Of a stretch of 64,000 nt of DNA, positions 9,564-25,019 are shown one piece after another. The stretch covers positions 248,001-312,000 of the forward strand of contig NZ_JAIVMC010000005.1 of the NCBI RefSeq assembly GCF_020177265.1, given 5' to 3'. The notes under the pieces are model-generated. The model was not told where the DNA came from. It was given only the letters and a program-made list of their open reading frames with translations, and made no database searches. The stretch's first letter is position 1, and each line of letters begins with the position of its first letter. Made by a program: the position numbers and the translations under genes. The stretch comes from Pseudooceanicola marinus. Its GTDB lineage: Bacteria > Pseudomonadota > Alphaproteobacteria > Rhodobacterales > Rhodobacteraceae.

Positions 9564-9570
9564 CTGACCC

Positions 9571-10185
9571 TCAGGAATGGGCGAAGATGTCGATCTCGGG
9601 CCAGCCCGCGAGGTCGAGTTTGGCCCGGGTGGGCAGGAAGTCGAAACAGGCCTGGGCGACCTCGGTCCGGTCCTCGCGCGCCAGCCGTTCGTCCAGCTTT
9701 TCGCGCAGGCGGTGCAGGTAGAGGACATCCGAGGCGGCATAGTCCAGTTGCGCCGGCGTCAGCTCCGCCGCGCCCCAGTCCGACATCTGCTGCTGCTTGG
9801 AAATGTCGACGCCGATCAGTTCCTGGGTCAGGTTCTTCAGCCCGTGGCGGTCGGTGTAGGTGCGCACCAGGCGGCTGGCGATCTTGGTGCAGTAGACCGG
9901 CGCGGCCAGGGCGCCGAAGGCCTTGAACATCGCGGCGATGTCGAACCGGCCGTAGTGGAACAGCTTCAGCACCTTCGGATCTTCCAGCATGCGGCAGAGG
10001 TTCGGCGCCTCGGTCTGGCCCTTCGCGACCTGCACGATATGCGCGTTGCCGTCGCCGCCCGACATCTGGATAACGCAAAGCCGGTCGCGATGCGGGTTCA
10101 GCCCCATGGTTTCACAGTCGATGGCCACCACCGGGCCGAGGTCCAGCCCGTCGGGCAGGTCGTTCTTGTAAAGGTGGTTGGTCAC
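9571..10185 (-). CDS. rnd: Ribonuclease D-like 3'-5' exonuclease
   Basis: 204-residue DEDD-family exonuclease domain without the C-terminal HRDC repeats of E. coli RNase D, so a short alphaproteobacterial form. DEDD motifs: AIDCETMGL (D23, E25), HYGRFDI (D82) and LDYAASDVLYL for the last acidic position with its Tyr. The start is GTG at 10185 (MTNHLYKNDL), placed behind AGGGAG; upstream in-frame sequence is not conserved protein. It probably trims tRNA or other structured RNA 3' ends. It is the first gene of the lptCAB run; the functional link between RNA trimming and LPS export is not evident. Confidence 0.88.
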   Translation of the reverse strand: MTNHLYKNDLPDGLDLGPVVAIDCETMGLNPHRDRLCVIQMSGGDGNAHIVQVAKGQTEAPNLCRMLEDPKVLKLFHYGRFDIAAMFKAFGALAAPVYCTKIASRLVRTYTDRHGLKNLTQELIGVDISKQQQMSDWGAAELTPAQLDYAASDVLYLHRLREKLDERLAREDRTEVAQACFDFLPTRAKLDLAGWPEIDIFAHS

Positions 10186-10249
10186 GGGGGCGGCTCCCTG
10201 AAAATCTGGAAATGACTTAGGGCGTCGGGGCCGTGGATGCAAATGAAGC

Positions 10250-10290
10250 TTGGGGAAAAGGCGTGGGGCCGGGCGGTGCGGCCCGGCCCC
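10250..10290 (-). terminator. Terminator after the dpp-type ABC operon
   Basis: Perfect 10-bp stem GGGGCCGGGC / GCCCGGCCCC (10265-10274 and 10281-10290), 6-nt loop. On the minus strand it is followed by ACGCCTTTTCC. It lies 24 bp beyond the last gene of the importer operon; the T run is modest. Confidence 0.6.
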
Positions 10291-10313
10291 CCTGTGCGGG
10301 TTTGCACAGCGCC

Positions 10314-11306
10314 TCAGGCGGCGTGGGCGGCCAGTTCCGGCAGCGGCGGCGTCAGCTCGCCCGCGTAGTGGCAGGCGACCTTGTGCCCCTCGGCGAAGGT
10401 CTTCACCGGCGGCTTCTCGGCCCGGCAGGTGTCGGTGGCGAAGGGGCAGCGCCCGGCAAACCGGCAGCCCTTCGGCGGGTTGATGGGCGAGGGCGGCTCG
10501 CCGGTCACGGTGAACCGATCGGTCGAGGGCGTGGTGTCGTCGGGTGACAGGGCCGCGGCCATCAGGGACCAGGTGTAGGGGTGTTTGGCACTGGCAAACA
10601 GCTCCTGCGTGGGGGCGGTCTCGACGAACTCCCCCAGATACATCACCGCCACATGGGTGCACAGGTGCTGCACCACCGCCAGGTCGTGGGAGATGAAGAC
10701 ATAGGTCAGGTGCTTCTCGATCTGCAGTTTCTTCAGCAGGTTCAAGATCTGCGCCTGGATCGCCACGTCGAGGGCCGAGACCGGCTCGTCGCAGACGATC
10801 AGCCGGGGCTCTGTCACCATGGCTCGCGCGATGCACAGTCGCTGCCGCTGCCCGCCGGAGAACTGGTGCGGGAAGAGGCGCTTGGCGTCGGGGTGCAGAC
10901 CCACGGCGCGAAACATCTCATCCACCCGTTTGTCCCGGCCCCGGGCCGGGCCGAGGCCCATCAGGTCAAGCGGTTCGCGCACTGCCTGACCCGCCCGCAG
11001 GCGGGGGTTGAGCGAGGAATAGGGATCCTGGAACACCATCTGCAGCATGTGTCGGAGGGTGCGCAGGGCCTCGCCCTCCAGCGCGCCCAGATCGTGCTTG
11101 TCCAGCTTGATACTGCCCGCCACCGGATCGACCAGCCGCATCAGCGCCTGCGCCGTGGTGGACTTGCCCGAGCCGCTTTCGCCGACGATGCCGAAGCTGT
11201 CGCCCTCGTTGACCTGGAAACTGACGCCATCGACGGCATGGACGGAGCTGCCATTTGCCAGGGGGAAGTGGACCTTCAGGTCCTTCACGTCGAGGAGGGG
11301 TTTCAT
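10314..11306 (-). CDS. Opp/Dpp-type ABC transporter ATP-binding protein (DppF-like)
   Basis: 330-residue ATPase of a peptide/opine/nickel (PepT-family) importer. Walker A GESGSGKST, signature FSGGQRQR, Walker B LIVCDEPVSALD, H-loop FISHDLAVV. The C-terminal oligopeptide-transporter extension has the conserved Cys-rich stretch CRFAGRCPFATDTC. The start at 11306 overlaps the upstream ATPase stop as ATGA. It is last in a five-gene minus-strand transporter run (binding protein, two permeases, two ATPases). The substrate cannot be read from the ATPase. The regulon context (see 18143-22593) suggests a taurine-containing compound rather than a general dipeptide. Confidence 0.9.
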   Translation of the reverse strand: MKPLLDVKDLKVHFPLANGSSVHAVDGVSFQVNEGDSFGIVGESGSGKSTTAQALMRLVDPVAGSIKLDKHDLGALEGEALRTLRHMLQMVFQDPYSSLNPRLRAGQAVREPLDLMGLGPARGRDKRVDEMFRAVGLHPDAKRLFPHQFSGGQRQRLCIARAMVTEPRLIVCDEPVSALDVAIQAQILNLLKKLQIEKHLTYVFISHDLAVVQHLCTHVAVMYLGEFVETAPTQELFASAKHPYTWSLMAAALSPDDTTPSTDRFTVTGEPPSPINPPKGCRFAGRCPFATDTCRAEKPPVKTFAEGHKVACHYAGELTPPLPELAAHAA

Positions 11307-12304
11307 GCGACCTGCTCCATCTTGTTGGTGTGCCAGCACAGGGCGGAATGGTCGGGGCCGGTGGGCACCACGGGCGGGGCCTCGGCGTGGCAGCGGGCAT
11401 CGGCCAGGGCACAGCGCGGGGCAAAGCGGCAGGCCTTGGGGAAACGACCCAGGGGCGGCACCATGCCGGGGATCTCGCCCAGCCCTTCCTCGGCGGCGCT
11501 GGCCGCAGCCGCGCCGAGGCGCAGGCGCGGGGTGCAGGCCATCAGGCCGCGCGTGTAGGGGTGCGAGGGATTGCTGAGGATTTCGCGAACCGGGCCGCTT
11601 TCGACGCATTTGCCTGCGTAGAGCACGGCGACCTCATCGGCCATTTCCGCCACCGCGCCCAGGTCGTGGGTGATCAGCATGATCGCGGTTTCGGTCTGGT
11701 CCTGCAATTCGCGCAGCAGGCGGAAGATCTGCGCCTGCACGGTCACGTCCAGCGCCGTGGTGGGTTCGTCCGCGATGATCACCTTGGGCCGACAGGCCAG
11801 CGCAATGGCGATCATCACCCGCTGGCGCATCCCGCCCGACAGCTCATGCGGATAGGCGGCCAGCCGGTCTTCGGGCGAGGGGATCTGGACGGCGCGCAGC
11901 ATTTCCAGCGCGATCTCGCGCGCCTCGGCGCCGGTCTTGCCCTGGTGCAGCTCCACCACCTCGGCGATCTGGCGTTCCACGGTCAGCACCGGGTTCAGGG
12001 CCGTCATCGGCTCCTGGAAGATCATCGAGATCGCGTTGCCGCGCAACTCGCGCATGCGGGCGGGTTTGGCGGCCAGAAGGTCCTCGCCCATCAGTTTGAT
12101 CGACCCGCCGGAGACGGCGAACCGGTCGGGCAGCAGGCCCATGGTCGACAGCGCCGTCATAGACTTGCCGCAGCCTGACTCGCCCACCACGCCAAGGGTC
12201 TTGCCGGGGGTGAGTTTCAGTGACACGCCATCCAGCACCGAATGCACCTGGCGGCCGGTGTCCACGCCGACCTTCAGGTCGGTGATTTCCAGAACGGGAT
12301 CCAT
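11303..12304 (-). CDS. Opp/Dpp-type ABC transporter ATP-binding protein (DppD-like)
   Basis: 333-residue ATPase, partner of the next gene. Walker [10 protein letters not shown], signature LSGGMRQR, Walker [14 protein letters not shown]-loop [14 protein letters not shown]. It has the C-terminal oligopeptide-transporter domain with [14 protein letters not shown]. The start at 12304 shares one base with the permease stop (TGATG), so translation is coupled. Two different ATPases form the heterodimeric motor, as is usual in DppBCDF-type importers. Confidence 0.9.
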
Positions 12305-13200
12305 CAGCGCCTCCGCAGTTTGGGGTTGAGGGCGTCGTTGATGCCGTCGCCGACAAGGCTGATCGCCAGCACGGTGATGAAGATCGCCACACCGGGCAGG
12401 GTCACCGTCCACCAGGCGTCCAGCAGGTAGTTCCGGTTCTGGCCGATGATCAGGCCCCAGGACATGGTGTTGGGATCCCCCAGCCCCAGAAAGGACATGC
12501 CGGCCTCGAAGAGGATCGCAGCGCCGACTGCCAGGCCCGCGGCCACCACCAGCGGCGGCAGGGCGGCGGGCAGGATGACGCGGAAGATCAGATAGGCATC
12601 GCGGGCGCCTGCGGTGCGGGCGGCCTGTACGTAGTCGAGTTTCCGGATCTTCATGAACTCGGCCCGGGCCAGGCGGGCGACCTGCGGCCAGCTGACCGCG
12701 CCGATGGCGAGGGTGATCGTCACCAGCGTCGCGCCGAAGATCGTCACCAGCACCATGGCGAGCAGCAGGGTCGGCAGGATCTGGAAGAACTCGGTCACCT
12801 TCATCAGCGCCGCGTCGATCCAGCCGCCGAAGTACCCGGCGAGCGATCCGATCAGGATGCCGATCACCACCGAGATCACGGCAGCGGCAGCCCCCACGGC
12901 CAGCGTGGCGCGGCCCCCTTCGATGATCCCGGCCAGCATGTCGCGGCCCAGGTAATCGGTGCCCAGGGGCGCATATTCTCCGCCCGGCGCGACGAAGGGC
13001 ATGTCGACCATGGAATAGGGATCCACGTCGTAGAAGACCGGGCCGAGGAAGGTGGTGCCCAGCACCAGCGCCAGCAGGATCAGCCCGATGATCGCGGACT
13101 GGTTGCGGGCGAAGGCGCGCAGGAACTCCAGCGCCGGATGCGCGGGTTTCGGCCCCGTGGCCTCGGGCGCGGCGGTGGGGGCGGAGGTCGTCTCCGTCAT
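12304..13200 (-). CDS. Opp/Dpp-type ABC transporter permease (DppC-like)
   Basis: 298-residue inner-membrane permease with an N-terminal OppC-type helix (NQSAIIGLILLALVLGTTFLGP), the GTDYLGRDML segment typical of DppC and OppC, and the binding-protein-dependent transport domain with EAA-loop residues around YVQAARTAGARDAYLIFRVILP. Six membrane segments are predicted. Start and stop overlap both neighbours by 1-4 bases, so the permease and ATPase genes are translationally coupled. Confidence 0.9.
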   Translation of the reverse strand: MTETTSAPTAAPEATGPKPAHPALEFLRAFARNQSAIIGLILLALVLGTTFLGPVFYDVDPYSMVDMPFVAPGGEYAPLGTDYLGRDMLAGIIEGGRATLAVGAAAAVISVVIGILIGSLAGYFGGWIDAALMKVTEFFQILPTLLLAMVLVTIFGATLVTITLAIGAVSWPQVARLARAEFMKIRKLDYVQAARTAGARDAYLIFRVILPAALPPLVVAAGLAVGAAILFEAGMSFLGLGDPNTMSWGLIIGQNRNYLLDAWWTVTLPGVAIFITVLAISLVGDGINDALNPKLRRR

Positions 13201-14198
13201 TGGGCCGCTCCTTTGGGTTTCGGGGCCTTGCGGCGCGACCCACCGATGCGGGGGTCGATCTTTCCATAGGCCAGGTCGGTCAAGATGTTGGCGACCATCA
13301 CCAGGATGGCCGAGAAGAAGAGGATCGCCAGGATCGTGGGATAGTCGCGGCGCAGGATGGATTCGTAGGCCAGCCGCCCCAGGCCCGGCCAGTTGAACAC
13401 CGTTTCCACCAGCACGGCGCCGGCGAACAGCTGACCGAACTGCAGACCCACCATGGTGACCACGGGGATCAGCCCGTTGCGCAGCGCATGGCCGAAGATC
13501 ACCCGGCGTTCGTTCAGCCCCTTGGCCCGCGCGGTGCGGATGTAGTCGGACCCCAGCACGTCCAGCATCGAGGCGCGCGAGAGACGCGAATAGGTGGCGA
13601 TATAGATCGAGGCCAGGGTCACCGAGGGCAGCACCAGATGGTGCAGCACATCCAGGACGGCGCCGATCCAGGTCTCGGAGCCGCGCACGTTCTGCATCCC
13701 CGAGACCGGGAAGATCGGAAAGACCGAGGCGAAGAGGATCAGCAGCATCAGCCCGGTCCAGAAGACCGGCGCGGCATAGCCCACGAGGGAGAAGATGGTG
13801 ACGAAATGCGACAGCAGACCTTTCGGTTTGCGCGCGGAATAGATCCCCATCAGCGTACCCACGACCACGGCGATCATCAGCGAGGACACGACCAGCAGGA
13901 TGGTGGCGGGCAGCCGTTGCAGGATCAGGCCCAGCACCGGCTGGTTGAAGTAGTAGGAATAGCCGAAATCGCCGGTGACGACCTTCGACAGGTAGAGGCC
14001 AAGCTGCACGATGACCGGCTTGTCCAGACCGTATTCGGCGCGCAGCCGGGCGATCAGCTCTTCCGAGGCGCCGCCCATCTCGCCGACGATGACCTCGACG
14101 GGATCACCCGGCGCCATCTGGATCAGCAGGAAGTTCAGCACCAGCACCGCGACCAGCAGGCCGATGGCGGAGGCAAGGCGTTTGACGAGGGGAGGCAT
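13197..14198 (-). CDS. Opp/Dpp-type ABC transporter permease (DppB-like)
   Basis: 333-residue permease. The N-terminal helix and MAPGDPVEVIVG motif are typical of DppB, and the EAA loop is DYIRTARAKGLNERRVIFGHALRNGLIP. ATG at 14198 is preferred over an in-frame start at 14237 because AGAGG stands 7 nt upstream and the protein then begins directly before the first helix. It is separated from the substrate-binding protein gene by an 82-bp gap that contains a strong stem-loop (14237-14268). Confidence 0.9.
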   Translation of the reverse strand: MPPLVKRLASAIGLLVAVLVLNFLLIQMAPGDPVEVIVGEMGGASEELIARLRAEYGLDKPVIVQLGLYLSKVVTGDFGYSYYFNQPVLGLILQRLPATILLVVSSLMIAVVVGTLMGIYSARKPKGLLSHFVTIFSLVGYAAPVFWTGLMLLILFASVFPIFPVSGMQNVRGSETWIGAVLDVLHHLVLPSVTLASIYIATYSRLSRASMLDVLGSDYIRTARAKGLNERRVIFGHALRNGLIPVVTMVGLQFGQLFAGAVLVETVFNWPGLGRLAYESILRRDYPTILAILFFSAILVMVANILTDLAYGKIDPRIGGSRRKAPKPKGAAQ

Positions 14199-14236
14199 GA
14201 AAGCACCTCTGGCAGGGGAGAAGGCTGAGGGAGGCA

Positions 14237-14268
14237 CCCGGCCCGCGGGGGAGCAGTCGCGGACCGGG
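14237..14268 (-). other. Intercistronic stem-loop between binding-protein and permease genes
   Basis: 11-bp arms CCCGGTCCGCG and CGCGGGCCGGG (one G-U pair) around a 10-nt loop, without a T run. Such hairpins after a binding-protein gene often stabilise the upstream mRNA and lower downstream expression, giving excess binding protein over permease. That role is inferred from position only. Confidence 0.5.
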
Positions 14269-14280
14269 CAGGGAGCGGGC

Positions 14281-15846
14281 TTATTCAGTCCACTCGACTT
14301 CGTCCCAGGGCGACACGGCGCCCCAGATGGTCTGCGGCAGCCCGGTCAGGCTGTCGTTGTAGGCGGTGTAGAAGGGCACTTCGTTGATGAAGAGGATCGG
14401 CGCATCGGCCACGACGATCTGCTGGAACTCCTTGTAGAGCTCCGCCCGGGCCTCCGGGTCGGTTTCCACGGCGGCCTGTTCCAGCAAGGCGTCCACCTCC
14501 GGGTTGGAATACTGCTGGGTGTTGGACCAGATCACGCCCTCGCGGATGTTCGAGGTCAGGTAGGTGCGGTGCACCCCGATCACCGGGTCGCCCCAGTTGT
14601 AGACGCTGTCCTCGGTCATGTCGAAATCGTAGGACGCGATGCGCTGAGCCCAGGTGGGGAAGTCCGGCGCGGTGCGCACCTCGACCTCGATGCCCAGGGG
14701 CCGCAGCTGGGTGCGCATGTATTCCGCCATGTTGCGGCCCATCTCGGCCATGCCGGGGATGAAGTCCATCGTGGCGGTGAAACGCACGCCGTCGGCGTCG
14801 GGGGCCAGGCCGGCCTCATCCAGAAGGGCGGCGGCCTTCTCCAGGTCGAAGTCGTAGGTTTCCACCTCGTCGGTGGCCATGGGCGAGGTCGCGGTGATCG
14901 GCCCGACGGAGGTCTTGGCCACGCCACCCAGCAGACGTTCCAGAATGAAGTCCTTGTTCATCGCATAGCCGATGGCCTGACGCACGCGCACGTCGTCGAA
15001 GGGCGGCTTCTGGGTGTTGAAGGCGATCCAGTTCAGCGGACCGACGGCATCGTAACCGTCATCCGAAACGCTGACGCCATCGGCCTTTTCCAGGCGCTGT
15101 ACGTCGCGGATGGCGGACATGAAGGGCACCATGTCGACGTCGCCGCGTTCGGCCGAGAGGGTCAGGTTGGCCTGGTCGCCGATGATCTGCACGATCACCT
15201 CGTCCATCTTCGGCAGGCCGTCGAGGAAGAAGTCCTCGTTCTTCTCCAGCCGGTAGAAATCCCCCTGCTGGTACTCGACGAACTTGAACGGACCCGATCC
15301 GACGGGCGACAGGTTGGCCGGGTTTTCCTGGATGTTGCCCTCGCCGTAGACGTGTTCGGGGATGATCGGCATCAGCGCGGGCGACATGGCCAGCATCAGC
15401 GCCGGGTGCGGGTTGGCGAGGTGGATCACCACGGTCAGGTCATCGGGGGTCTCGACCTCGGTCACCGGGGCCAGCATCGTCTGGAACGGGTGGTTTTCCT
15501 TGATCGTCTCGATCGAGAATTTCACGTCGGCGGAGGTCAGCGGCTCGCCATCGTGGAAGGTCACGCCGTCGCGCAGGTTCAGGGTGACCGTCAGGCCATC
15601 TTCGGAGGTTTCCCAGCTTTCGGCCAGGTAGGGTTCGGGGTTCCACTCGGCATCGTATTTCAGCGGCGAGGCGAAGACCTGCGCGGTGGCCATGAAGGTG
15701 GCGATGCCGGACTGGATGGCGCCGTTGAAATGGCGCGGGGTCTGGGTGGTGCCGACGACCAGCGTGTCGGCGACGGCCGGGGTGAAACCGGCGCTCAGGC
15801 CCAGGGCGAGGGCCCCGGCGAGAGTGGATGTCTTGAAGAGTTTCAT
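14281..15846 (-). CDS. Opp/Dpp-type ABC transporter substrate-binding protein (SBP_bac_5)
   Basis: 521-residue periplasmic receptor. A Sec signal peptide (LAGALALGLSAGFTPAVA) is cleaved near residue 26. Family landmarks are LAESWETSEDGLTVTLNLRDGVTFHDGEPLTSADVKFS in order, GSGPFKF, and VRQAIGYAMNKDFI. It binds the ligand and delivers it to the DppBC-like permeases. The gene follows the TauE/SafE exporter gene by 45 bp in an apparent aldehyde dehydrogenase-exporter-importer operon controlled from the element at 18143-18175. This argues that its ligand feeds taurine metabolism; a free di- or oligopeptide cannot be excluded. Confidence 0.88.
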   Translation of the reverse strand: MKLFKTSTLAGALALGLSAGFTPAVADTLVVGTTQTPRHFNGAIQSGIATFMATAQVFASPLKYDAEWNPEPYLAESWETSEDGLTVTLNLRDGVTFHDGEPLTSADVKFSIETIKENHPFQTMLAPVTEVETPDDLTVVIHLANPHPALMLAMSPALMPIIPEHVYGEGNIQENPANLSPVGSGPFKFVEYQQGDFYRLEKNEDFFLDGLPKMDEVIVQIIGDQANLTLSAERGDVDMVPFMSAIRDVQRLEKADGVSVSDDGYDAVGPLNWIAFNTQKPPFDDVRVRQAIGYAMNKDFILERLLGGVAKTSVGPITATSPMATDEVETYDFDLEKAAALLDEAGLAPDADGVRFTATMDFIPGMAEMGRNMAEYMRTQLRPLGIEVEVRTAPDFPTWAQRIASYDFDMTEDSVYNWGDPVIGVHRTYLTSNIREGVIWSNTQQYSNPEVDALLEQAAVETDPEARAELYKEFQQIVVADAPILFINEVPFYTAYNDSLTGLPQTIWGAVSPWDEVEWTE

Positions 15847-15891
15847 GACTGCGTTCCTGTTGGGAGAGATTTGTTATTTGGTTTCTTGGTT

Positions 15892-16620
15892 TTAGAGAAG
15901 ACCCCCGATCCCGCGCAGGGCGGTCACGGCGGCGGTGATACCCAGCAGGCCGATGGCGGCCATCCGGTATCCGCCCTCGCCCAGCCGGGCGAAGGCACGG
16001 CCCCCCGCCCAGGTGCCGACCAGCAGGGCGGGCAGGGCGATCAGGGCCTGGGTGAAGACCTGCACGTCGATCTTCTGCGCAAGCCACAGCCCCGGAAGGG
16101 CCATCAGGGAGGTCAGGAAGAAGAACACCATGGCCGAGGCGCGGGTGTTCTTCGCGGGCGTGTCGGTTCCCAGGAAATAGGCGATGGCGGGCGGTCCGGG
16201 CATGGCGGCGAGGCCCGAGAAGACCCCGGCGGTCAGACCTGCGCCGATGGCCGGGCCGGGTCCGCTGGGCAGGCGGATCTTCAGCAGCAGGGCAGCCAGG
16301 CCGATGGCCACGATCACCGCCAGCACCACGCGCATCACGTCCGGCGACAGCTGTGTCAGCCCCCAGAGGCCGAGGGGCGTGCCGACCACCGCGCCGATCG
16401 CCATGATCCCCAGCGTGCGGTACATCACCAGCCCCCGGGTGCTGAGGATGTCGCGCAGCCCCACCATGCATTGCAGCAGGATGGCGATGGTCACCGCGCG
16501 GGCAGGTGGCAGGAAGAGGCTGAGCGCCGGCACGGCCGCCAGGGCAAAGCCGAAGCCCGTCAGCCCCCGCAGGACCGCGGCGGCGAAGGTCGCCGCGCAT
16601 ATGAGGGCGTAGACCTCCAT
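15892..16620 (-). CDS. TauE/SafE-family exporter, proposed sulfoacetate exporter
   Basis: 242-residue inner-membrane protein with about eight hydrophobic segments and the TauE/SafE N-terminal motif LRGLTGFGFALAAVP repeated in reduced form in the second half (MPGPPAIAYFLG). The family exports sulfite, sulfoacetate and similar organosulfonates. The start shares one base with the aldehyde dehydrogenase stop (TGATG), so the two are translationally coupled. The tauR-tpa context suggests export of sulfoacetate, parallel to SafD-SafE in taurine-nitrogen assimilation by Neptuniibacter caesariensis. Sulfite export is less likely because no sulfoacetaldehyde acetyltransferase is present to release sulfite. 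The substrate assignment is inference. Confidence 0.8.
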   Translation of the reverse strand: MEVYALICAATFAAAVLRGLTGFGFALAAVPALSLFLPPARAVTIAILLQCMVGLRDILSTRGLVMYRTLGIMAIGAVVGTPLGLWGLTQLSPDVMRVVLAVIVAIGLAALLLKIRLPSGPGPAIGAGLTAGVFSGLAAMPGPPAIAYFLGTDTPAKNTRASAMVFFFLTSLMALPGLWLAQKIDVQVFTQALIALPALLVGTWAGGRAFARLGEGGYRMAAIGLLGITAAVTALRGIGGLL

Positions 16621-18110
16621 CAGTCGAAGTTCATCACGATGGTCTTCGAGCGGGTGAAATGGGCCAGCATCGCCTCAAGCGAGGCTTCCTTGCCCAGGCC
16701 CGAACGGCCGAAGCCGCCGTAGGACACGTTGGGCTGGATCGTCAGGTTCTGGTTCACCTGCACATAGCCCGCGTTCAGCCGCGCCGTGCTGTCCAGCGCC
16801 ACCGACAGGGATTTCGTCCAGACCGAGGCCGCCAGCCCGTAGTGGGTGGCATTGGCCTTGGCGATTACGTCCTCGTAGTCGTCCCAGGCGGCGATGAAGG
16901 CGACGGGGCCGAAGATCTCGTTCATCACGCAGGGATGATCCTCGGGCAGGTCCAGCAGCAGGGTTGGCTGCATGAACAGCTCCGGCGCCAGCTCCGCGCC
17001 CTCGGGCGCGGTGCCGCAGCGGATGACCTTCGCGCCCGGGGTCGCCTCGGCCTGGGCCACGTAGTCGTTGATCACCTTGGCCTGTTTGGCGTTGATGATC
17101 GTGCCCACATCCGTGGCCTCGTCCAGCGGGTCACCGATCACCAGCTGGTCCAGCTCGGCGGTCAGTTTCTCCATGAAGGCGTCCATCAGCGAGGCATGGA
17201 CGTAGATGCGCGAGGCGGCGGTGCAGCTCTGCCCCTGACGGGTGAAGCGCATGCCGGAGATCGCCCCCGCGACGGTCTTGTCGAGGTCGGCATCCTCGCA
17301 GATGATCATCGGGGACTTGCCGCCCAGTTCCAGGCTGACCGGGATGATCTTCTTGGCGGCGGCCTCATAGACCGTCTGGCCCACGGCCTCGGAGCCGGTG
17401 AAGGTGATCTTGGCGACCTTGGGGTGTTCGCACAGCGGCGCGCCACAGGCCGGGCCGGTGCCGTTGATGACGTTGACCACGCCGGCGGGCAGGTGGCGCG
17501 ACAGGATCTCGATCATCGCATAGGTGGCATAGGGCGCCTCTTCCGAGGCCTTCACGACCACGGTGTTGCCCGCCACCAGCGCCGGCGCGATCTTCAGCAT
17601 CATCAGCACCAGGGGCACGTTCCACGGCAGGATCGCGCCCACCACGCCCAGCGGTTCGCGGGTGGTCATGGTCAGGGAGCGAGGGTGGAAGGGCACCGTC
17701 TCGCCCTTCAGCTCGGAGCCCAGGCCGGAATAGAATTCCAGGATGTCGATGGCGGTCTTCACCTCGCCCCGGCATTCGGTGCGGATGGCCTTGCCGGTTT
17801 CGCGCGCCAGGGCCTGGGCGATCACCTCGGCCTCTGCCGTCATGGCGCGGGCGGCGGCGCCGACCAGCTTGCCCCGCTCACGTGCCGGCACCTGGGTCCA
17901 GCCGGGGAAGGCCGCGGCGGCCACCTCGACGGCGGCGGCGGTTTCCTCGGCCGAAGACGCGGCGGCCTGGCCTATCTCGGCCCCGGTGGCGGGGTTCATC
18001 ACCGCCAGGGTGGCGGCGGTGGCGCGTTTCTCGCCGCCCACCAGGTTCACACCGGCGTAGGAGGCGATCAGTGCCTCGGGATCCTGGGGCAGAAGGGGTG
18101 TCTCGGTCAT
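16620..18110 (-). CDS. NAD(P)-dependent aldehyde dehydrogenase, proposed sulfoacetaldehyde dehydrogenase (SafD-like)
   Basis: 496-residue aldehyde dehydrogenase. The catalytic cysteine is C296 in RQGQSCTAASRIY, the general-base glutamate E261 in LELGGKSP, and the oxyanion asparagine N164 in LPWNVP. The fold and length are those of the betaine/succinic-semialdehyde group. A TauR-like direct repeat lies 32 bp upstream of the start, and the gene is coupled to a TauE/SafE exporter. With tpa in the same regulon, the simplest substrate is sulfoacetaldehyde, oxidised to sulfoacetate for export. An alternative is an aldehyde released from the imported conjugate. Substrate specificity cannot be decided from residues. 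Confidence 0.85.
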   Translation of the reverse strand: MTETPLLPQDPEALIASYAGVNLVGGEKRATAATLAVMNPATGAEIGQAAASSAEETAAAVEVAAAAFPGWTQVPARERGKLVGAAARAMTAEAEVIAQALARETGKAIRTECRGEVKTAIDILEFYSGLGSELKGETVPFHPRSLTMTTREPLGVVGAILPWNVPLVLMMLKIAPALVAGNTVVVKASEEAPYATYAMIEILSRHLPAGVVNVINGTGPACGAPLCEHPKVAKITFTGSEAVGQTVYEAAAKKIIPVSLELGGKSPMIICEDADLDKTVAGAISGMRFTRQGQSCTAASRIYVHASLMDAFMEKLTAELDQLVIGDPLDEATDVGTIINAKQAKVINDYVAQAEATPGAKVIRCGTAPEGAELAPELFMQPTLLLDLPEDHPCVMNEIFGPVAFIAAWDDYEDVIAKANATHYGLAASVWTKSLSVALDSTARLNAGYVQVNQNLTIQPNVSYGGFGRSGLGKEASLEAMLAHFTRSKTIVMNFD

Positions 18111-18142
18111 TCTTTCGTTGTCCTTGGGTCATCTGCCCCCGG

Positions 18143-18175
18143 CTTGGGCCAGAGGGCGGCATTGCATGGGTCCAC
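18143..18175 (-). promoter_or_regulatory. TauR-like operator upstream of the aldehyde dehydrogenase gene
   Basis: Minus-strand half-sites GTGGACCCAT (18175-18166) and CTGGCCCAAG (18152-18143), starts 23 bp apart. The same spacing and sequence type occur before tpa and before the amidohydrolase gene. It ends 32 bp before the ATG. Confidence 0.7.
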
Positions 18176-18224
18176 GCGGGGCGGAAATGAAAACCGGATC
18201 GGGCCAGAGGCGCAGTCCGGGAGG

Positions 18225-19163
18225 TTATTGTCCTGCTTTCAGGGGGTTGCCAGAGAGCATCTCGGTCAGGTCCAGATCGGGCTGGGTGCCGATGCCGACC
18301 AGGTGCGTGCCTGTTTCCTGTGCATCTGAACCGGGGGTCAGCTCCCACCGACCGGCCACCCATTGCAGCAGGGCGGGGCCTTCGCCGGCGATCTCCACCC
18401 AGCCCTTCAGCCGCAGCAGATCGGCGGGCAGGGCGGCCAGCGCGGCCTCCAGCGCGGGGCGGGGCAGGGGGCCGGTGTCGACCCGGTAGCGGTGGAAGAC
18501 ATGGTCATGGGCCATCGGATCGCCCTGCGGGGCCGACAGCAGCGACAGGGTGGAGCCGGCCAGCAGCTCCATCGGCAGGGCGGCGCGGGTGGTTTCGGCC
18601 ACGGTCTTGCCCGGTGCGAGGCGGCGCAGGGCGGCGCGGGCCTCGGTAAGGCGGGCGTCACCGGCGGCATCCACGTGGTTCAGCACCACCAGGTCGGCGC
18701 CGTCGAACTGGCGCGCCACGGTGTCGCCAATCAGCGGGTCATCAAGCTGCGCCGCCAGCTCCACCGCGTTGGCCATGGTCACCACCATGTCCAGTTTCAG
18801 CCCGCGTTCCAGCAGGGCGAATTCGGCCACGCGGCGCGGTTCGCCCACGCCCGAGGCCTCGATCAGGATCTCGTCCGGGCCCTTTTCCATCGCCGCGACC
18901 AGGGCCGGGCCGATACCCTCGGCCATCGAACAGCAGATGCAGCCGCCCGACAGCTCCAGCGTCAGCCCGTCGTCCGAGCGGATCAGCGCGGCATCCACGT
19001 TGATGTCGCCAAAATCGTTGACCAGCACGGCGATGCGGGTGGTGGCGGCGCCCAGGATCCGGTTGACCAGCGTGGTCTTGCCGGAGCCGAGGAAGCCACC
19101 GATCACGGTGACCGGGATCAGGCCGGGCGCGGGCCGGGCGGCGACGTTCAGGGGTGGCGTCAT
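18225..19163 (-). CDS. COG0523 (CobW-like) GTPase, putative metallochaperone
   Basis: 312-residue G3E-family P-loop GTPase. Walker A GGFLGSGKTTLVNRIL, the metal-binding CxCC motif in SGGCICCS, the G3 segment ASGVGEP, and a CobW C-terminal domain (GWVEIAGEGPALLQW). The guanine-specificity motif reads NHVD instead of NKxD. There is no His-rich tail. The start overlaps the amidohydrolase stop as ATGA, so the pair is coupled. Family members load metal (Zn, Co, Fe) into partner enzymes, and this one most likely serves the metal-dependent amidohydrolase it is coupled to. Confidence 0.87.
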   Translation of the reverse strand: MTPPLNVAARPAPGLIPVTVIGGFLGSGKTTLVNRILGAATTRIAVLVNDFGDINVDAALIRSDDGLTLELSGGCICCSMAEGIGPALVAAMEKGPDEILIEASGVGEPRRVAEFALLERGLKLDMVVTMANAVELAAQLDDPLIGDTVARQFDGADLVVLNHVDAAGDARLTEARAALRRLAPGKTVAETTRAALPMELLAGSTLSLLSAPQGDPMAHDHVFHRYRVDTGPLPRPALEAALAALPADLLRLKGWVEIAGEGPALLQWVAGRWELTPGSDAQETGTHLVGIGTQPDLDLTEMLSGNPLKAGQ

Positions 19164-20881
19164 GCGGGCACCGGTGCGTCGGGGATCGTGACATCGGGCA
19201 CCGGCGCCTGGTCGGCGGGGATCGCGCTTTCGTACCACTGGCCCGCGCTGATGGTGCCCAGCACACGCACCTCGCGCAGTTTCATCGGCTCCACCTCGGC
19301 GGGGTCGCTGTCCAGCACGGCGAAATCGGCGAACTTGCCGACCTCGATCGAACCCACCAGGTGATCGAGTTTCAGCTGGTAGGCGGCGCCGATGGTGATC
19401 GCCTTCAGCGCCTCCTCGACGGGCAGGCATTCCTCCGGCCCCATGATGCGGCCCTCGCTGGTCAGCCGGTTGACGGCGCACCAGGCGGTAAACAGCGGGT
19501 TCAGCGGCGTTACCGGCACGTCGCAATGGACCGAGAACTGCACCCCTTCGGCCAGGGCCGTGCCGCAGGCATCCATGCGCCGCGCCTTGTCGGGTCCCAT
19601 GGTCAGCGCATAGTGCTGTTCGCCCCAGTAGAAGATGTGGTTGGCAAAGAGGTTGGCCGACAGGCCAAGCGCCTTCATCCGCCGGAACTGCGCCCGGTCG
19701 GCCATCTGGCAGTGCTGCAACACGTGGCGATGGTCCGGACGCGGCGCCTTGGTCAGCGCCTCTTCCATCACGTCGATCACGAACTCGGACGCCTGGTCGC
19801 CGTTGACGTGGCAATGCATCTGCATGCCGGCCTCGTGGTAGGCCAGGATCATCGCCTTCAGCTGCGCCGGCGGCACGTTCCATAGCCCGTTCGGCGCCCC
19901 GTTGTGATAGCCCGGCCATTTCAGTCGTCCGGTGAAGCCCTGGATGGAGCCGTCGGTCATGATCTTCACCAGCCCCATGTAGAGCCGGTCATTGCCCTGT
20001 GTCTTCAGCTCGGTCGCGCGGGCGATGCCCTCGTCCAGCGCCCACTGGATGGCGCCCAGGGCGGGCACGATGCGGATGGGGAAGTCCGCCTCTTTTGTGA
20101 CGGCCAGGAAGGCGGCCAGCGAGTCGTCGTTCAAGCGCTGGTGCAGGTCGGTGGTGGTGGTGACCCCGGCGTTGACGGAGGCGCGGCCATAGGTGCGCAG
20201 GGTGTCGGCATCGACATCGCGCACCGCCATCGCCTCGCCCACCACGCGGGCGGCCATGTTCATCGCCGCCATCTCCTGCAGTTCGCCCGTCTCGACGCCC
20301 TCAGCGTCGCGCAGGATGCCCTCGACGTTGCTCTGGCCCAGCATGTTGCCGCGTTCCATCACCGGCGTGTTCACGTTCAGCAGGTGCAGCGAGGCATGCA
20401 TGATGACGATCGGACGGGTGGCGGAAACGGCATCCAGGTGTTTGCGTGTCATCCGTTCGCTGTAGTAGATCGGGTCGAACCCCCAGGCGACCAGCGCCTG
20501 GTCGGGATCGGTCAGCTTCGCCTCTTCTTCCTTCAGCCGCTCGACCACCGCCTCGATGCTTTTCAGCCCGCCCTCGACATGGCCATCGGGCGCCGTGCGC
20601 TTGAAGTAGCCCAGGAACAGGTTGTTCCACAGCGAGCCTTCCATCGTGTGCCCATGGGCCTCGACGAAGCCGGGCATCAGGATGCGTTCCGCGAAACGCT
20701 CATCCAGGGTGCAGTCCCAGGTCGCCTGCCAGGCGGCGCAATCACTGGCATCACCCACGGCCAGGATGCGGCCGTCGCGCACCGCCACATGGGTGGCCAG
20801 TGGACGGTTGGGGTTCATGGTGCGGATGCGGGCCGCCTTGAAGATGGTCACGGCGGAGGATGTCGCGGGTGAGGAGGTCAT
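19160..20881 (-). CDS. Metal-dependent amidohydrolase, YtcJ-like (Amidohydro_3)
   Basis: 573-residue cytoplasmic amidohydrolase with no signal peptide. Metal-site landmarks are HxH in FVEAHGHTMEG, TDGSIQGFTG, HCHVNGDQAS and the segment HRHVLQHCQM. The C-terminus returns to the composite beta-sandwich typical of the superfamily (VGKFADFAVLDSDPAEV). Members hydrolyse amide, carbamate or related bonds. A TauR-like repeat 59 bp upstream and coupling to a COG0523 metallochaperone place it in the taurine regulon. The proposed role is release of taurine from an imported N-substituted taurine; the exact bond is unknown. It starts 126 bp after tauR and has its own operator, so it is separately controlled. 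Confidence 0.85.
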   Translation of the reverse strand: MTSSPATSSAVTIFKAARIRTMNPNRPLATHVAVRDGRILAVGDASDCAAWQATWDCTLDERFAERILMPGFVEAHGHTMEGSLWNNLFLGYFKRTAPDGHVEGGLKSIEAVVERLKEEEAKLTDPDQALVAWGFDPIYYSERMTRKHLDAVSATRPIVIMHASLHLLNVNTPVMERGNMLGQSNVEGILRDAEGVETGELQEMAAMNMAARVVGEAMAVRDVDADTLRTYGRASVNAGVTTTTDLHQRLNDDSLAAFLAVTKEADFPIRIVPALGAIQWALDEGIARATELKTQGNDRLYMGLVKIMTDGSIQGFTGRLKWPGYHNGAPNGLWNVPPAQLKAMILAYHEAGMQMHCHVNGDQASEFVIDVMEEALTKAPRPDHRHVLQHCQMADRAQFRRMKALGLSANLFANHIFYWGEQHYALTMGPDKARRMDACGTALAEGVQFSVHCDVPVTPLNPLFTAWCAVNRLTSEGRIMGPEECLPVEEALKAITIGAAYQLKLDHLVGSIEVGKFADFAVLDSDPAEVEPMKLREVRVLGTISAGQWYESAIPADQAPVPDVTIPDAPVPA

Positions 20882-20940
20882 GGGGGGAGAGTCCTGTTGG
20901 TCGATTTTTCCCGCAGCCTAGGCAGGGGGCGGCGCGCCAG

Positions 20941-20973
20941 ACAGGTCCAGCCCGGTCCCATGGGTTGGGCCAG
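20941..20973 (-). promoter_or_regulatory. TauR-like operator upstream of the amidohydrolase gene
   Basis: Minus-strand half-sites CTGGCCCAAC (20973-20964) and CTGGACCTGT (20950-20941), starts exactly 23 bp apart. The proximal half with its flanks shares the 13-mer GGCTGGACCTGTC with the tpa site. It ends 59 bp before the ATG and begins 34 bp after the tauR stop. Confidence 0.75.
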
Positions 20974-21007
20974 CGTAAATCCGTTTCATGTCAGGGATGT
21001 GTGCGGA

Positions 21008-22441
21008 TCACAGATCGCGCACGGCGCGGCCCAGCTCGGCGAGGCCCGCGTCGATCTTGCGTTCGTCGATGTAGGAAATCCCGAGCCGCAGGAAGCGGCC
21101 CGCCTGGTCCTCAGGCACGAAGGGGTCTCCGGATTCGAACAGCACCCCGCGCGCGCAGGCGGCGGTGAACAGCGCCCGCGCATCGACACCGGGCGGGCAT
21201 TCCAGCCAGACCGAGGACCCGCCATGCGTGCCCGTGCGGCGGAAGTCGGGCAGGTAGCGGTCGCAGCCCTCGACCACCTTGGCGTGGCGATGGTCCAGCG
21301 CGGCCCGCAGGGAGCGTTGCAGCGCCAGGTAATGCCCCTCGGCCAGGAAGATCCCGGCGGTGCGCTGGTTGTTCAGCGGGGCCGAGCGATGGATCAGCCG
21401 GCGCAGCCAGCGGGCCTCCTCCACCAGGGCGGGAGCGGCCACCATGAAGCCCAGGCGCACGCCGGGCGCCAGCACCTTGGACAGCGTGCCGAGGTAGGCG
21501 ACATGGCCGGAGTTATCGAGGCTTTTCAACGTGGTCTGGTCGCCGTCGCTGGCGGTTTCGCCCTCGTAGTCATCCTCGATCAGCACGGTGCCGTCACGGC
21601 GCGCCCGCGCTAGGGTCGCCAGGCGGCGTTCGGGGGACATGGGCACCATGGTCGGGCAATGATGCGCCGGGGTCAGCACCGCCAGGTCCAGCGCGCTGTC
21701 GGGCAGGCGGGCACCCTCGCTGTCGATGGGCAGGTCGATGATGTCGGCGCCTTCGGCGGCCATGATGTTGCGGCTGTCGGGATAGCCCGGCATTTCACAG
21801 CCCACGCGGGTGCCGGGGCGCGCCAGCAGACGGGCCAGAAGATACAGCCCCTCCTGGGTGCCCAGGGTGATCAGGATTTCCTCGGGCTTCGCGTAGATGC
21901 CCCTTTGCGGCAGGATCTGGGTGCGGATCTGTTCGACCAGCAGCGGATCATCCTCCACCGCGCGGTCGGCGGTCCACCAGTCAATGGCCGACCGGCCAAG
22001 CGCGTCGCGGGAACAGGTGCGCCAGGTGTTGATCGGAAAGAGCGAGGGATCGACCTGCCCGTAGACGAAGGGAAAGGCGTAGTCCTGCCAGTTCGAGGGC
22101 TTGATGATGTGGCGCAGCCGCGAGGGGCGCTGTTTCAGCCGTGCGTCCCAGTCCGGGCCGGTGCCGGGGGCGGCCTCGGGCTGGTTCGCCGGTTCGGGCG
22201 GCAGGTCGCGGGCGACGAAGACCCCGCGGCGCGGCACGGAATCGAGGTAGCCGCGCGCCACCAGTTCCTCGTAGACCGCCGTGACCGTGTTGCGCGCGAT
22301 GCCAAGCTGACCAGCCAGCTGCCGCGAGGGGGGCATCTTCTGTCCCAGCTGCATCTGGCCCGAGTGGATCGACTCGACGATCCGGCGCCGCAGCTGCGAC
22401 TGGATCGGCTCTTCGCTTTCCCGGGTGATGATGGTTAGCAT
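21008..22441 (-). CDS. tauR: MocR-family (GntR-aminotransferase) transcriptional regulator TauR
   Basis: 477-residue regulator. An N-terminal GntR winged helix (about 8-75: PIQSQLRRRIVESIHSGQM, PPSRQLAGQLGIARNTVTAVYEELVARGYL) is fused to a class-I aminotransferase-like domain with the PLP lysine in GTLSKVLAPGVRLGF. It is divergent from tpa with 209 bp between starts, the arrangement known for TauR of Rhodobacter capsulatus and relatives, where it activates tpa on taurine. The direct repeats at 22549-22593 resemble the published TauR half-site (CTGGACYTAA, from memory). In this window it probably controls tpa, the amidohydrolase-GTPase pair and the aldehyde dehydrogenase-exporter-importer operon. 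Confidence 0.88.
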   Translation of the reverse strand: MLTIITRESEEPIQSQLRRRIVESIHSGQMQLGQKMPPSRQLAGQLGIARNTVTAVYEELVARGYLDSVPRRGVFVARDLPPEPANQPEAAPGTGPDWDARLKQRPSRLRHIIKPSNWQDYAFPFVYGQVDPSLFPINTWRTCSRDALGRSAIDWWTADRAVEDDPLLVEQIRTQILPQRGIYAKPEEILITLGTQEGLYLLARLLARPGTRVGCEMPGYPDSRNIMAAEGADIIDLPIDSEGARLPDSALDLAVLTPAHHCPTMVPMSPERRLATLARARRDGTVLIEDDYEGETASDGDQTTLKSLDNSGHVAYLGTLSKVLAPGVRLGFMVAAPALVEEARWLRRLIHRSAPLNNQRTAGIFLAEGHYLALQRSLRAALDHRHAKVVEGCDRYLPDFRRTGTHGGSSVWLECPPGVDARALFTAACARGVLFESGDPFVPEDQAGRFLRLGISYIDERKIDAGLAELGRAVRDL

Positions 22442-22548
22442 GGGTGTTGGTCCTATCTCGCCGGATCATAGCCGGTGCGGCGGGACATGATACATGACGT
22501 TTCGCGCGGGGATGTTCGCCTGCCAACGGTTTCGCCCAAGATCCGGGC

Positions 22549-22593
22549 GTGGACAAGTCCGTGGACCCATGTATTCGTGTCGGCTGGACCTGT
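22549..22593 (+). promoter_or_regulatory. TauR operator in the tauR-tpa divergent region
   Basis: Three direct half-sites: GTGGACAAGT (22549-22558), GTGGACCCAT (22561-22570) and CTGGACCTGT (22584-22593). The last two are 23 bp apart, as at the other two operators in the window. They lie 57 bp before the tpa ATG and on the tauR-upstream side, so they could serve activation of tpa and autoregulation. Confidence 0.75.
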
Positions 22594-22650
22594 CGCGAGC
22601 GCGCGGCACGCGGCTTTGTGACGGCAAGGACCCAACCGGGAGTTATATTC

Positions 22651-24018
22651 ATGTACGACAACGACATCAGTGATGTGGTGGCCGCCGACAAGGCCCATGT
22701 CTGGCACCACCTGACCCAGCACAAACCCTTTGAAACCTCCGATCCGCGCGTGATCGTCGAGGGCAAGGGCATCCACGTCTGGGACGCCAAGGGCACCCGT
22801 TACCTCGATGCCGTCTCCGGCGGGGTCTGGACCGTCAACGTGGGCTATGGCCGCGAATCCATCGCCGATGCCGTGCGTGAACAGCTGGTGAAACTGAACT
22901 ATTTCGCCGGTTCCGCGGGCTCGATCCCCGGCGCGCTGTTCTCGGAAAAGCTGATCGAAAAGATGCCGGGCATGTCCCGCGTCTACTACTGCAACTCTGG
23001 GTCCGAAGCGAACGAGAAGGCCTTCAAGATGGTCCGCCAGATCGCGCACAAGCGCTATGGCGGCAAGAAGACCAAGATCCTGTTCCGTGAACGCGATTAC
23101 CACGGCACCACCATCGCCGCCCTGTCGGCCTGTGGCCAGCCGGAACGCCACATGCAGTACGGCCCCCTGACGCCCGGTTTCGTCGAGGTCCCGCATTGCC
23201 TGGAGTACCGCAAGCAGTGGGACGTCGAGAACTACGGTGAACGCGCCGCCGATGCGATCGAGGAAGTGATCCTGCGCGAAGGCCCCGACACCGTCGGCGC
23301 CATCTGCCTGGAACCCGTCACCGCCGGTGGCGGCGTGATCGTTCCGCCCAAGGGCTACTGGGAGCGGGTGCAGGAGATCTGCAAGAAATACGACGTGCTG
23401 CTGCACATCGACGAGGTGGTCTGCGGCGTCGGCCGGACCGGCACCTGGTTCGGCTACCAGCACTACGGCATCAAGCCCGACTTCGTGACCATGGCCAAGG
23501 GCGTCGCCTCCGGCTATGCCGCCATCGCCTGCTGCGTGACCACCGAAGAGGTGTTCAACCTGTTCAAGGACGATGCCGAGGATCCGCTGAACTATTTCCG
23601 CGACATCAGCACCTTCGGCGGCTGCACCGCCGGTCCCGCCGCCGCGCTGGAAAACCTGGCGATCATCGAGCGCGAGGGCCTGCTGGAAAACACCACGGCC
23701 ATGGGCGACTACTGCCTGGAGAAGCTGGAAGAGCTGAAGGACAAGCATGCCGTCGTCGGCGACGTGCGCGGCAAAGGCCTGTTCCTCGGCGCCGAACTGG
23801 TCGCAGATCGCGGCACGAAGGAGCCGGTGGCCGAGAAGCTGGCCCAGCAGGTCGTGGGTGAATGCGGCGCCCAGGGCGTGATGATCGGGGTCACCAACCG
23901 CTCGCTGCCCGGGTTCAACAACACGCTGTGCCTGTCGCCCGCGCTGATCGCCACGAAAGACAATATCGACGAGATCGTGGGCGCCATGGACGTGGCCCTG
24001 ACCCGCGTCTTCGGCTGA
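22651..24018 (+). CDS. tpa: Taurine:pyruvate aminotransferase
   Basis: 455-residue class-III PLP aminotransferase that converts taurine + pyruvate to sulfoacetaldehyde + alanine. The PLP lysine is K283 in MAKGVASGY, with IDEVVCGVGRTGTWFGYQHYG before it and SGSEANEKAFKMVRQI for the phosphate site. The sequence tracks characterised Tpa over its whole length as I remember it (VWHHL, SGGVWTVNVGYGRE, DYHGTT, FRDISTFGGCTAGPAAALEN). The start at 22651 is chosen for GGGAG 9 nt upstream; earlier in-frame starts cross the operator. It is divergent from tauR. No xsc or tauABC follows, so the sulfoacetaldehyde is probably oxidised rather than cleaved. Confidence 0.9.
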   Translation: MYDNDISDVVAADKAHVWHHLTQHKPFETSDPRVIVEGKGIHVWDAKGTRYLDAVSGGVWTVNVGYGRESIADAVREQLVKLNYFAGSAGSIPGALFSEKLIEKMPGMSRVYYCNSGSEANEKAFKMVRQIAHKRYGGKKTKILFRERDYHGTTIAALSACGQPERHMQYGPLTPGFVEVPHCLEYRKQWDVENYGERAADAIEEVILREGPDTVGAICLEPVTAGGGVIVPPKGYWERVQEICKKYDVLLHIDEVVCGVGRTGTWFGYQHYGIKPDFVTMAKGVASGYAAIACCVTTEEVFNLFKDDAEDPLNYFRDISTFGGCTAGPAAALENLAIIEREGLLENTTAMGDYCLEKLEELKDKHAVVGDVRGKGLFLGAELVADRGTKEPVAEKLAQQVVGECGAQGVMIGVTNRSLPGFNNTLCLSPALIATKDNIDEIVGAMDVALTRVFG

Positions 24019-24263: not shown

Positions 24264-25019
24264 ATGGCGAACGACCAAACCCCCGTGACCATCGAACGTA
24301 TCCGGCATGAGCTGAAGCGGCGCCCGCTGACCCTGCTGGAAAAGGAAGAACTGACCCCGCACATGCTGCGCCTGACCTTCGGCGGCGCGGACCTGGCCGA
24401 TTTCGCCTCGCCCGGCGTGGATGATCACGTGAAGCTGATCTTCCCCGTCAAAGGCGAGGAGGCGCCGGTGATGCGCGAATACACCCCGCGCAGCTACGAC
24501 AACGACGCGCAACGGCTGGTGCTGGATTTCGCCGTGCATGAGGCCGGCCCCGCCACCGCCTGGGCCATCGCGGCGCAGCCGGGCGACGAACTGACCGTGG
24601 GCGGCCCGCGCGGCAGCCAGGTGGTCAGCGGCCCGCAGGAGTGGCTGCTGATCGGGGATGAAACCGCCCTGCCGGCCATCGCGCGCCGGATCGAGGGGCT
24701 GGACGCGGGCCACAAGGTCACCGCGCTGATCGCCGTGCCGGGCGCAGCGGACGAACAGGGCTTCGACACCGATGCCGAGGTGGAGATTCGCTGGATCCAC
24801 CGCCCCGAGGACGAGGCGCATCTGGTCGATCCGATTCTGCCCGCCCTGGCGGAGGTCGAGTTGACCGAGGGGCTTTATGCCTGGATCGCCGCCGAGGCGA
24901 CCGTGGCCCGTGCCCTGCGAAATGCGCTGGAAGAACGGGGTCACCCGCTGACCCGGATGAAGGCCGCGGGCTACTGGACGCGCGGCGTGGCGGACGGGTC
25001 GGACAAGAGCATCGCCTGA
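24264..25019 (+). CDS. Siderophore-interacting FAD-binding protein
   Basis: 251-residue flavoreductase of the SIP family, which reduces ferric siderophores in the cytoplasm. The N-terminal FAD domain has MREYTPRSYD (RxYT-type FAD-binding motif), and the C-terminal SIP domain has EWLLIGDETALPAIARRIE and the end motif GYWTRGV, both family hallmarks. ATG at 24264 follows an AGAGGA site. It stands alone between the tpa terminator and the tRNA. I found no convincing Fur box in the 245-bp upstream gap, so its regulation is not readable. Confidence 0.9.
   Translation: MANDQTPVTIERIRHELKRRPLTLLEKEELTPHMLRLTFGGADLADFASPGVDDHVKLIFPVKGEEAPVMREYTPRSYDNDAQRLVLDFAVHEAGPATAWAIAAQPGDELTVGGPRGSQVVSGPQEWLLIGDETALPAIARRIEGLDAGHKVTALIAVPGAADEQGFDTDAEVEIRWIHRPEDEAHLVDPILPALAEVELTEGLYAWIAAEATVARALRNALEERGHPLTRMKAAGYWTRGVADGSDKSIA

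Follow-up and report, generated by a model that had tools for sequence, protein, structure and literature searches.

A TauR2-type gene block in Pseudooceanicola marinus with a predicted route from N-acetyltaurine to excreted sulfoacetate

Introduction

What becomes of sulfoacetaldehyde in a bacterium that appears able to form it from taurine and has no gene for Xsc? This question is raised by a block of 11 genes (10314-24018) in a 64,000-nucleotide stretch of Pseudooceanicola marinus DNA (family Rhodobacteraceae; assembly GCF_020177265.1, contig NZ_JAIVMC010000005.1, positions 248,001 to 312,000 of the forward strand). The whole of this stretch is called the window, and positions are those of the window; other loci and genomes carry our own numbers (L and G). 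Pathways that end with Xsc release the sulfonate sulfur. In Neptuniibacter caesariensis, the use of taurine nitrogen reportedly involves TauABC, Tpa and SafE. SafD and the release of sulfoacetate are given for the same pathway (Krejcik 2008; an excerpt of PMC12625764). From gene content, gene order, operators, conservation and the absence of xsc, we consider it fairly probable that the block is a TauR-type regulon by which the nitrogen of N-acetyltaurine (plus acetate) would go to the cell, the C2 sulfonate skeleton being excreted as sulfoacetate with no desulfonation.

Results and Discussion

The block was delineated by open reading frame (ORF) and Pfam scans. Leftward from 22441 lie the genes for a MocR-type regulator, an amidohydrolase, a COG0523 GTPase, an aldehyde dehydrogenase, a TauE/SafE protein and an Opp-type importer, and rightward that for a class III aminotransferase. 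A preliminary description of the same DNA had already placed tauR, tpa, the amidohydrolase, the COG0523 chaperone, the dehydrogenase, the TauE/SafE protein and a full Opp/Dpp importer together, and all of them were found; the importer is complete as claimed, but it reaches left to 10314, further than had been indicated.

In the route that we propose, the substrates, the transport direction and the activation are all predictions. N-acyltaurine would be imported by a naaA type periplasmic binding protein (14281..15846, on the minus strand like all genes of the block except tpa; SBP_bac_5, 288.6 bits) and an OppBCDF-type ATP-binding cassette (ABC) transporter. The latter consists of permeases of the oppB/naaB type (13197..14237; BPD_transp_1) and the oppC/naaB' type (12304..13200; BPD_transp_1 and OppC_N) and of ATPases of the oppD/naaC type (11303..12304) and the oppF/naaC' type (10314..11306), both with ABC_tran and oligo_HPY domains and with inferred starts (MKPLLDV in the oppF/naaC' type). 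A YtcJ-type metal amidohydrolase of the naaS type (19160..20881; PF07969, Amidohydro_3, 241 bits), the predicted N-acyltaurine amidohydrolase, would free taurine and an acid, which would be acetate if the acyl group is acetyl. Its metal is probably delivered by the COG0523/CobW-type GTPase, a naaT type metallochaperone (18225..19166; cobW and CobW_C), whose gene overlaps that of the amidohydrolase. The class III aminotransferase of the Tpa type (22651..24018, plus strand), predicted to be taurine:pyruvate aminotransferase, would pass the amino group of taurine to pyruvate, yielding alanine and sulfoacetaldehyde. The aldehyde dehydrogenase (16620..18110; Aldedh, 497 bits), a predicted sulfoacetaldehyde dehydrogenase outside the SafD family, would then form sulfoacetate, and the product of the abutting gene, a TauE/SafE-family membrane protein (15892..16620), would export it; the match of the latter to PF01925 (TauE; 92.5 bits, cut-off 32.6) is above the gathering score and does not tell which ion is carried. 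The MocR/TauR-family regulator (TauR2-like; 21008..22441; GntR and Aminotran_1_2) is predicted to switch on three promoters.

The exporter gene adjoins the dehydrogenase gene in all 12 dehydrogenase loci, the window included. The window dehydrogenase is 62-75% identical to its 11 orthologues, and the 12 aligned sequences form one group with a mean column identity of 75%, in which Arg288 and Arg291 are invariant (12/12). Both residues, which we propose would contact the sulfonate, stand just before the presumed catalytic Cys296, Arg291 five residues ahead of it; in the alignment, 4o6r, the best-scoring solved relative, has Asn at the position of Arg291. Searches of the PDB returned no solved relative that reveals the substrate. 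The tpa gene is found in the dehydrogenase cluster at 8 of the 12 loci (the window, L095, L096, L099 and L100-L103), and a DAO + SnoaL gene pair, which we take to be TauXY-like, at three more (L098, L180 and L181), so that one or the other is present in 11 of 12. A Tpa-like aminotransferase was found somewhere in each of the six dehydrogenase carriers of the family and also in the three named block genomes searched; two Rhodopseudomonas genomes had no Tpa at E 1e-150 and carry the DAO + SnoaL pair beside the dehydrogenase instead. In Achromobacter and Bordetella loci, too, this pair is found, next to TauR-type regulators, naaS and TauABC-like genes. One dehydrogenase group is thus common to two unrelated systems, both of which presumably produce sulfoacetaldehyde.

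In order to relate this pair to Xsc, we compared their occurrence. In the whole genome, which is 98.8% complete, the best match to TIGR03457 scored 265.5 bits against a cut-off of 676.4. The lack of xsc that had been read from the window thus holds genome-wide, and a copy elsewhere, which had been named as an objection to the pathway, was looked for and no Xsc over the cut-off was found. We then turned to 394 genomes of the family, in which the searches for naaS, the dehydrogenase and xsc scored the top three candidates per genome. The xsc gene was present in 247 of them at E 1e-150 (in 244 with a score above the curated cut-off), with none among the six dehydrogenase carriers against 247 of the 388 others (Fisher p 0.0025). 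Within the naaS carriers the counts were 0 of 4 with the dehydrogenase and 70 of 74 without it (p 4.9e-5). Five named carriers, P. spongiae, P. nitratireducens, Antarcticimicrobium and two Rhodopseudomonas, were likewise without xsc (0/5). R. palustris XCP has the pair and neither Tpa (E 1e-150) nor xsc, and one operator (see below) stands between its pair and its TauXY-like genes. The presence of the dehydrogenase-exporter pair in genomes that lack xsc is what oxidation and export of sulfoacetaldehyde would lead one to expect, and supports that view.

A hypotaurine-type route would need no Xsc either, and would account for the missing gene. Here the aminotransferase would act on hypotaurine (or on its N-acyl form), the product would spontaneously lose sulfite to give acetaldehyde, the dehydrogenase would make acetate, and the exporter would remove sulfite. 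The precedent is said to be that of Felux in 2013 for Paracoccus denitrificans, and the export of sulfite is the classic role of TauE (PMC5320631). We nevertheless hold this route to be improbable. The dehydrogenase lies far under the cut-off for the acetaldehyde dehydrogenase ExaC (332.6 vs 900), the importer and hydrolase match the N-acetyltaurine set, and the same dehydrogenase-exporter pair clusters with TauABC-like genes and tpa (G071) and with the TauXY-like pair (Rhodopseudomonas, G018), systems whose known substrate is taurine. In addition, R. palustris is reported to make sulfoacetate out of taurine (an excerpt of PMC12625764).

Several observations weigh against the oxidation and export of sulfoacetaldehyde by this pair. 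SafD, the name given to the dehydrogenase in the preliminary description, had to be rejected at 228.4 bits against a cut-off of 700 (NCBIfam NF047626), a cut-off that was passed by no protein in 16 genomes (0/16). Outside the full block the exporter is 37-51% identical. In L094 (G127; ~9131-12504) the pair has neither tpa nor TauXY within 20 kb, with Tpa elsewhere in that genome. As many as 141 of the 388 family genomes without the dehydrogenase are also without xsc, and G192, from the window's own genus, has Tpa and neither xsc nor dehydrogenase, so that the loss of xsc may predate the pair. The dehydrogenase carriers are few and share ancestry, and with three candidates scored per genome a carrier could be missed. 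Neither xsc nor the dehydrogenase was found in four of the 74 naaS genomes (G098, G102, G119 and G209; G098 and G119 are incomplete), for which reason another fate of sulfoacetaldehyde may exist; Jiella, Tardiphaga and two Bradyrhizobium have TauR-linked naaS with no dehydrogenase match and no xsc. The R. palustris strain of Denger 2004 may differ from XCP. Finally, among the matches listed (25 of 46 families), the best curated ones for the dehydrogenase are aminobutyraldehyde and betaine-aldehyde dehydrogenases, all under cut-off. The aminobutyraldehyde-type matches would suit a pair that has another task, such as the handling of a semialdehyde derived from homotaurine or gamma-aminobutyrate (GABA), and is merely co-regulated; in the same direction, an excerpt of section 15 of PMC5320631 deals with TauR/TauR2 regulons, whose GabD-like dehydrogenases and Opp transporters it ties to GABA and to the sulfonate analogue of GABA. 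To such a role we give a slim chance, for it explains neither the complementarity with xsc nor why two unrelated systems, each presumed to produce sulfoacetaldehyde, have this pair beside them.

Returning to sulfoacetaldehyde as the substrate, we propose, with somewhat less assurance than for the regulon itself but still on the probable side, that the dehydrogenase represents a second family of sulfoacetaldehyde dehydrogenases, independent of SafD. With its TauE/SafE-type partner it would replace Xsc in at least six genera and would be the missing gene pair behind the sulfoacetate of Rhodopseudomonas. Through it, users of taurine and N-acetyltaurine would no longer consume the carbon and release the sulfur but mine the nitrogen and give sulfoacetate back to the environment.

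The upstream half of the block resembles a published system. For Ruegeria pomeroyi, an excerpt of PMC4334477 gives SPO0657 as naaT (putative metallochaperone), SPO0658 as naaS (N-acetyltaurine amidohydrolase), SPO0659 as naaR (LysR) and SPO0660-0664 as the naaABB'CC' transporter, and cites Denger, Lehmann and Cook 2011 on Cupriavidus necator for the N-acetyltaurine system; naaS serves as a marker of N-acetyltaurine use in a passage of PMC9870897. The window has in common with R. pomeroyi the YtcJ-type amidohydrolase, the metallochaperone and the five-gene Opp-type importer, a link made by gene set and order. In contrast to R. pomeroyi, it has a TauR2-type MocR regulator in place of the LysR-type NaaR, and its block holds tpa and the dehydrogenase-exporter pair in a genome without Xsc. 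No LysR-type NaaR was present in the window block, and a distant LysR was not searched for. Overall, the window set looks like a member of the Naa group with another regulator, and an N-substituted taurine is the likely entry compound, with acetyl as the best guess for the acyl group because it belongs to the annotated substrate of the relatives. An N-substituted entry compound had been postulated before, and the match of hydrolase, chaperone and importer to naaT-naaS-naaABB'CC' agrees with it; free taurine, set aside in that proposal, is probably used as well, by way of a separate locus (see below).

By itself, the upstream half of the block is common. In the family, naaS (E <=1e-100) occurs in 78 of 394 genomes, and among 40 chosen family loci naaT was found in 35 (it was not matched in L077, L078 and L085-L087) and a naaA-type binding protein (>=45% identical) in 29. 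The usual family arrangement is naaT-naaS-LysR-naaA-oppBCDF, the place of LysR between naaS and naaA having been checked in L048 and L051 only. The best 80 of at least 562 genome_contigs loci with naaS, to which the window amidohydrolase is 50-72% identical, had naaT in 80 of 80 and a naaA-type binding protein within the fetched stretch in 41 of 80. The window binding protein is 49-58% identical to those near naaS in family loci having one (72% in L054), and the permeases are 54-64% identical to those of family naa loci that have them, L054 being higher. Among the matches listed for plasmid records (15 of 43), none was named N-acetyltaurine. Tandem copies of naaS were seen in three family loci (L069, L077 and L078), possibly a split of acyl specificity.

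The acyl group itself is less certain. The window amidohydrolase is 60-72% identical to those of four other block loci and just 39-56% to most other naaS proteins, so that its acyl specificity may differ, which counts against acetyl. Opp-type binding proteins often accept larger ligands. These points, together with the divergent specificities suggested by the tandem naaS copies of several relatives, would fit the same pathway with another entry, namely one or more other N-substituted taurines (longer acyl, gamma-glutamyl or carbamoyl) and a hydrolase broadened or shifted from N-acetyltaurine. This variant, which overlaps with our explanation, is possible and in our view rather unlikely: gene set and order are those of a system whose annotated substrate is N-acetyltaurine, and the binding protein falls in the same group as those near other naaS.

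We next looked for a common operator. The direct repeat TGGMCC-N17-TGGMCC, with a period of 23 bp, has exactly three matches in the window against 0.09 expected, a number reached by none of 100 shuffled windows. When gaps from 5 to 40 were compared, 17 alone yielded three matches of the TGGMCC pair. The matches fall only in the promoters of tpa (TGGACC-N17-TGGACC, 22562..22590, plus strand), of the amidohydrolase gene (TGGCCC-N17-TGGACC, 20944..20972, minus strand) and of the dehydrogenase-exporter-importer genes (TGGACC-N17-TGGCCC, 18146..18174, minus strand), which bears out the earlier remark that three promoter regions share one operator. Because the first of these lies between the two candidate starts of tpa, ATG at 22651 is a more likely start than GTG at 22549. 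MocR domains and paired direct-repeat boxes in three promoters, the features of a TauR/TauR2 regulon, were both found; for TauR, direct repeats CTGGACYTAA are described (PMC5320631). Our prediction is that TauR2 acts on these TGGMCC pairs, with their 23-bp period, and thereby activates all three promoters. Over the whole genome a loose form of the pattern was not enriched (9 matches vs 15 for the reversed control), so the operator claim rests on placement and conservation.

Such conservation was found in the relatives. Exactly three matches were counted in each of L100, L101 and L102, in the corresponding three promoters, and L103 has two in corresponding promoters, with a tpa copy that shows one mismatch by eye. 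In each of the two Rhodopseudomonas loci (L180 and L181), a single operator stands between the TauXY-like genes and the dehydrogenase gene. A single match lies upstream of the binding protein gene in L098, and L099 and L104 have one match each outside the tpa, amidohydrolase and dehydrogenase promoters. With zero mismatches allowed, no operator was found in L094, L095, L096, L129, L137, L174 or L018. The regulator is 81-82% identical to its counterparts in L100 and L101 and 39% to the other TauR-type regulator of the genome. Boxes resembling the operator, spaced 22 bp, were seen beside the dehydrogenase-exporter pair of L094 (G127).

Relatives had been suggested as a check of the block, and four other named species share the order tpa-tauR2-naaS-naaT-dehydrogenase-exporter-naaA-oppBCDF, namely Pseudooceanicola spongiae, P. 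sediminis, P. nitratireducens and Antarcticimicrobium sediminis (L100-L103), with tpa cut off at a contig end in P. sediminis. These are four of the best 80 loci from at least 562 relatives in genome_contigs. Rearranged gene sets occur in G215, G018, G318 and Rhodopseudomonas, and G071 has the order tauR-tpa-tauABC-dehydrogenase-exporter without naaS. A scan of viral contigs with Tpa gave no relative.

Free taurine is probably also used, by way of a separate locus. On contig C6 (94000-113000, L018), at ~4642-15594, we found a TauR-type regulator, a second tpa and a TauABC-like importer, and the idea of a genome without free-taurine genes was rejected on these grounds; tauABC, said earlier to be absent, is so in the window, but TauABC-like genes are in the genome. 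The TauA-like protein of C6 scored 152.6 bits with TIGR01729, below the cut-off of 304. L018 also encodes an SSADH-like aldehyde dehydrogenase and a dimethylglycine-dehydrogenase-like protein with DAO and GCV_T domains. That dehydrogenase is 29% identical to the one in the window, scored 276.9 bits with the SafD model, under cut-off, and may also act on sulfoacetaldehyde. The Tpa assignment in the window relies on identity to aminotransferases beside TauABC-like genes, 71% to that of L018 and 76% to that of G071, the latter also beside the dehydrogenase and exporter genes; for the window protein no NCBIfam model over cut-off and no named Tpa appeared among the matches listed (25 of 69).

How much of this is new? 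The preliminary description knew of no route that joins such an importer and hydrolase with SafD/SafE, and we had to give up the notion of a route without precedent. The Naa set is published (PMC4334477, in excerpt), and in 2016 Suvorova and Rodionov predicted a TauR2 regulon with tauE, oppABCDF, COG523, COG1574 and COG1012 members, that is, co-regulation with an aldehyde dehydrogenase and tauE (PMC5320631). The gene families are the same as here, but they were not given the function proposed here; the main text of that paper makes no mention of acetyltaurine, sulfoacetate or SafD. The upstream half is therefore known, and the downstream end, the dehydrogenase and exporter, looks new. With Neptuniibacter the block has in common a Tpa-type aminotransferase, an aldehyde dehydrogenase, a TauE/SafE-family exporter and sulfoacetate as the predicted waste, but its dehydrogenase is outside the SafD family, and what enters is probably an N-acylated compound taken up by an Opp-type importer. 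Rhodopseudomonas palustris reportedly forms sulfoacetate when given taurine (Denger 2004; an excerpt of PMC12625764), and in two Rhodopseudomonas genomes the dehydrogenase-exporter pair adjoins TauXY-like genes and shares the operator of the window. Among the open-access papers listed, none was seen that links acetyltaurine and sulfoacetate in bacteria.

If the proposal is true, some bacteria take the nitrogen alone and export sulfoacetate; the sulfonate would then remain in organic form, available as food to other organisms. A transfer of N-acetyltaurine and taurine from phytoplankton to marine bacteria has been inferred (a passage of PMC9870897). The safD pathway was looked for in sponge symbionts and not detected, and another source of sulfoacetate was called for, according to an excerpt of PMC12625764; the dehydrogenase would mark, at the sequence level, a source of sulfoacetate that escapes the SafD model. 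The proposal would also provide a function for the so far unexplained TauR2 regulon, and candidate genes for sulfoacetate production by Rhodopseudomonas.

Some further features were noted. In L129, L137 and L174 (Tardiphaga and Bradyrhizobium), a TauXY-like pair, a TauE-family gene, a TauR-type regulator and Naa genes lie together, and in L094 a Peptidase_S58 gene follows the dehydrogenase-exporter pair. A promoter scan returned no sigma-70-like site, and a scan for terminators gave 6 candidate sites where 3.1 were expected (sd 1.6). By eye, a hairpin resembling a terminator stands 3' of tpa. Behind it a separate and probably unrelated gene begins (24264-25019, plus strand), whose product we take to be a siderophore-interacting protein. 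Further to the right, 44194-45450 (minus strand) encodes a flavin adenine dinucleotide (FAD)-dependent oxidoreductase; its identity to the TauY-like proteins in L098 and L158 is ~31%.

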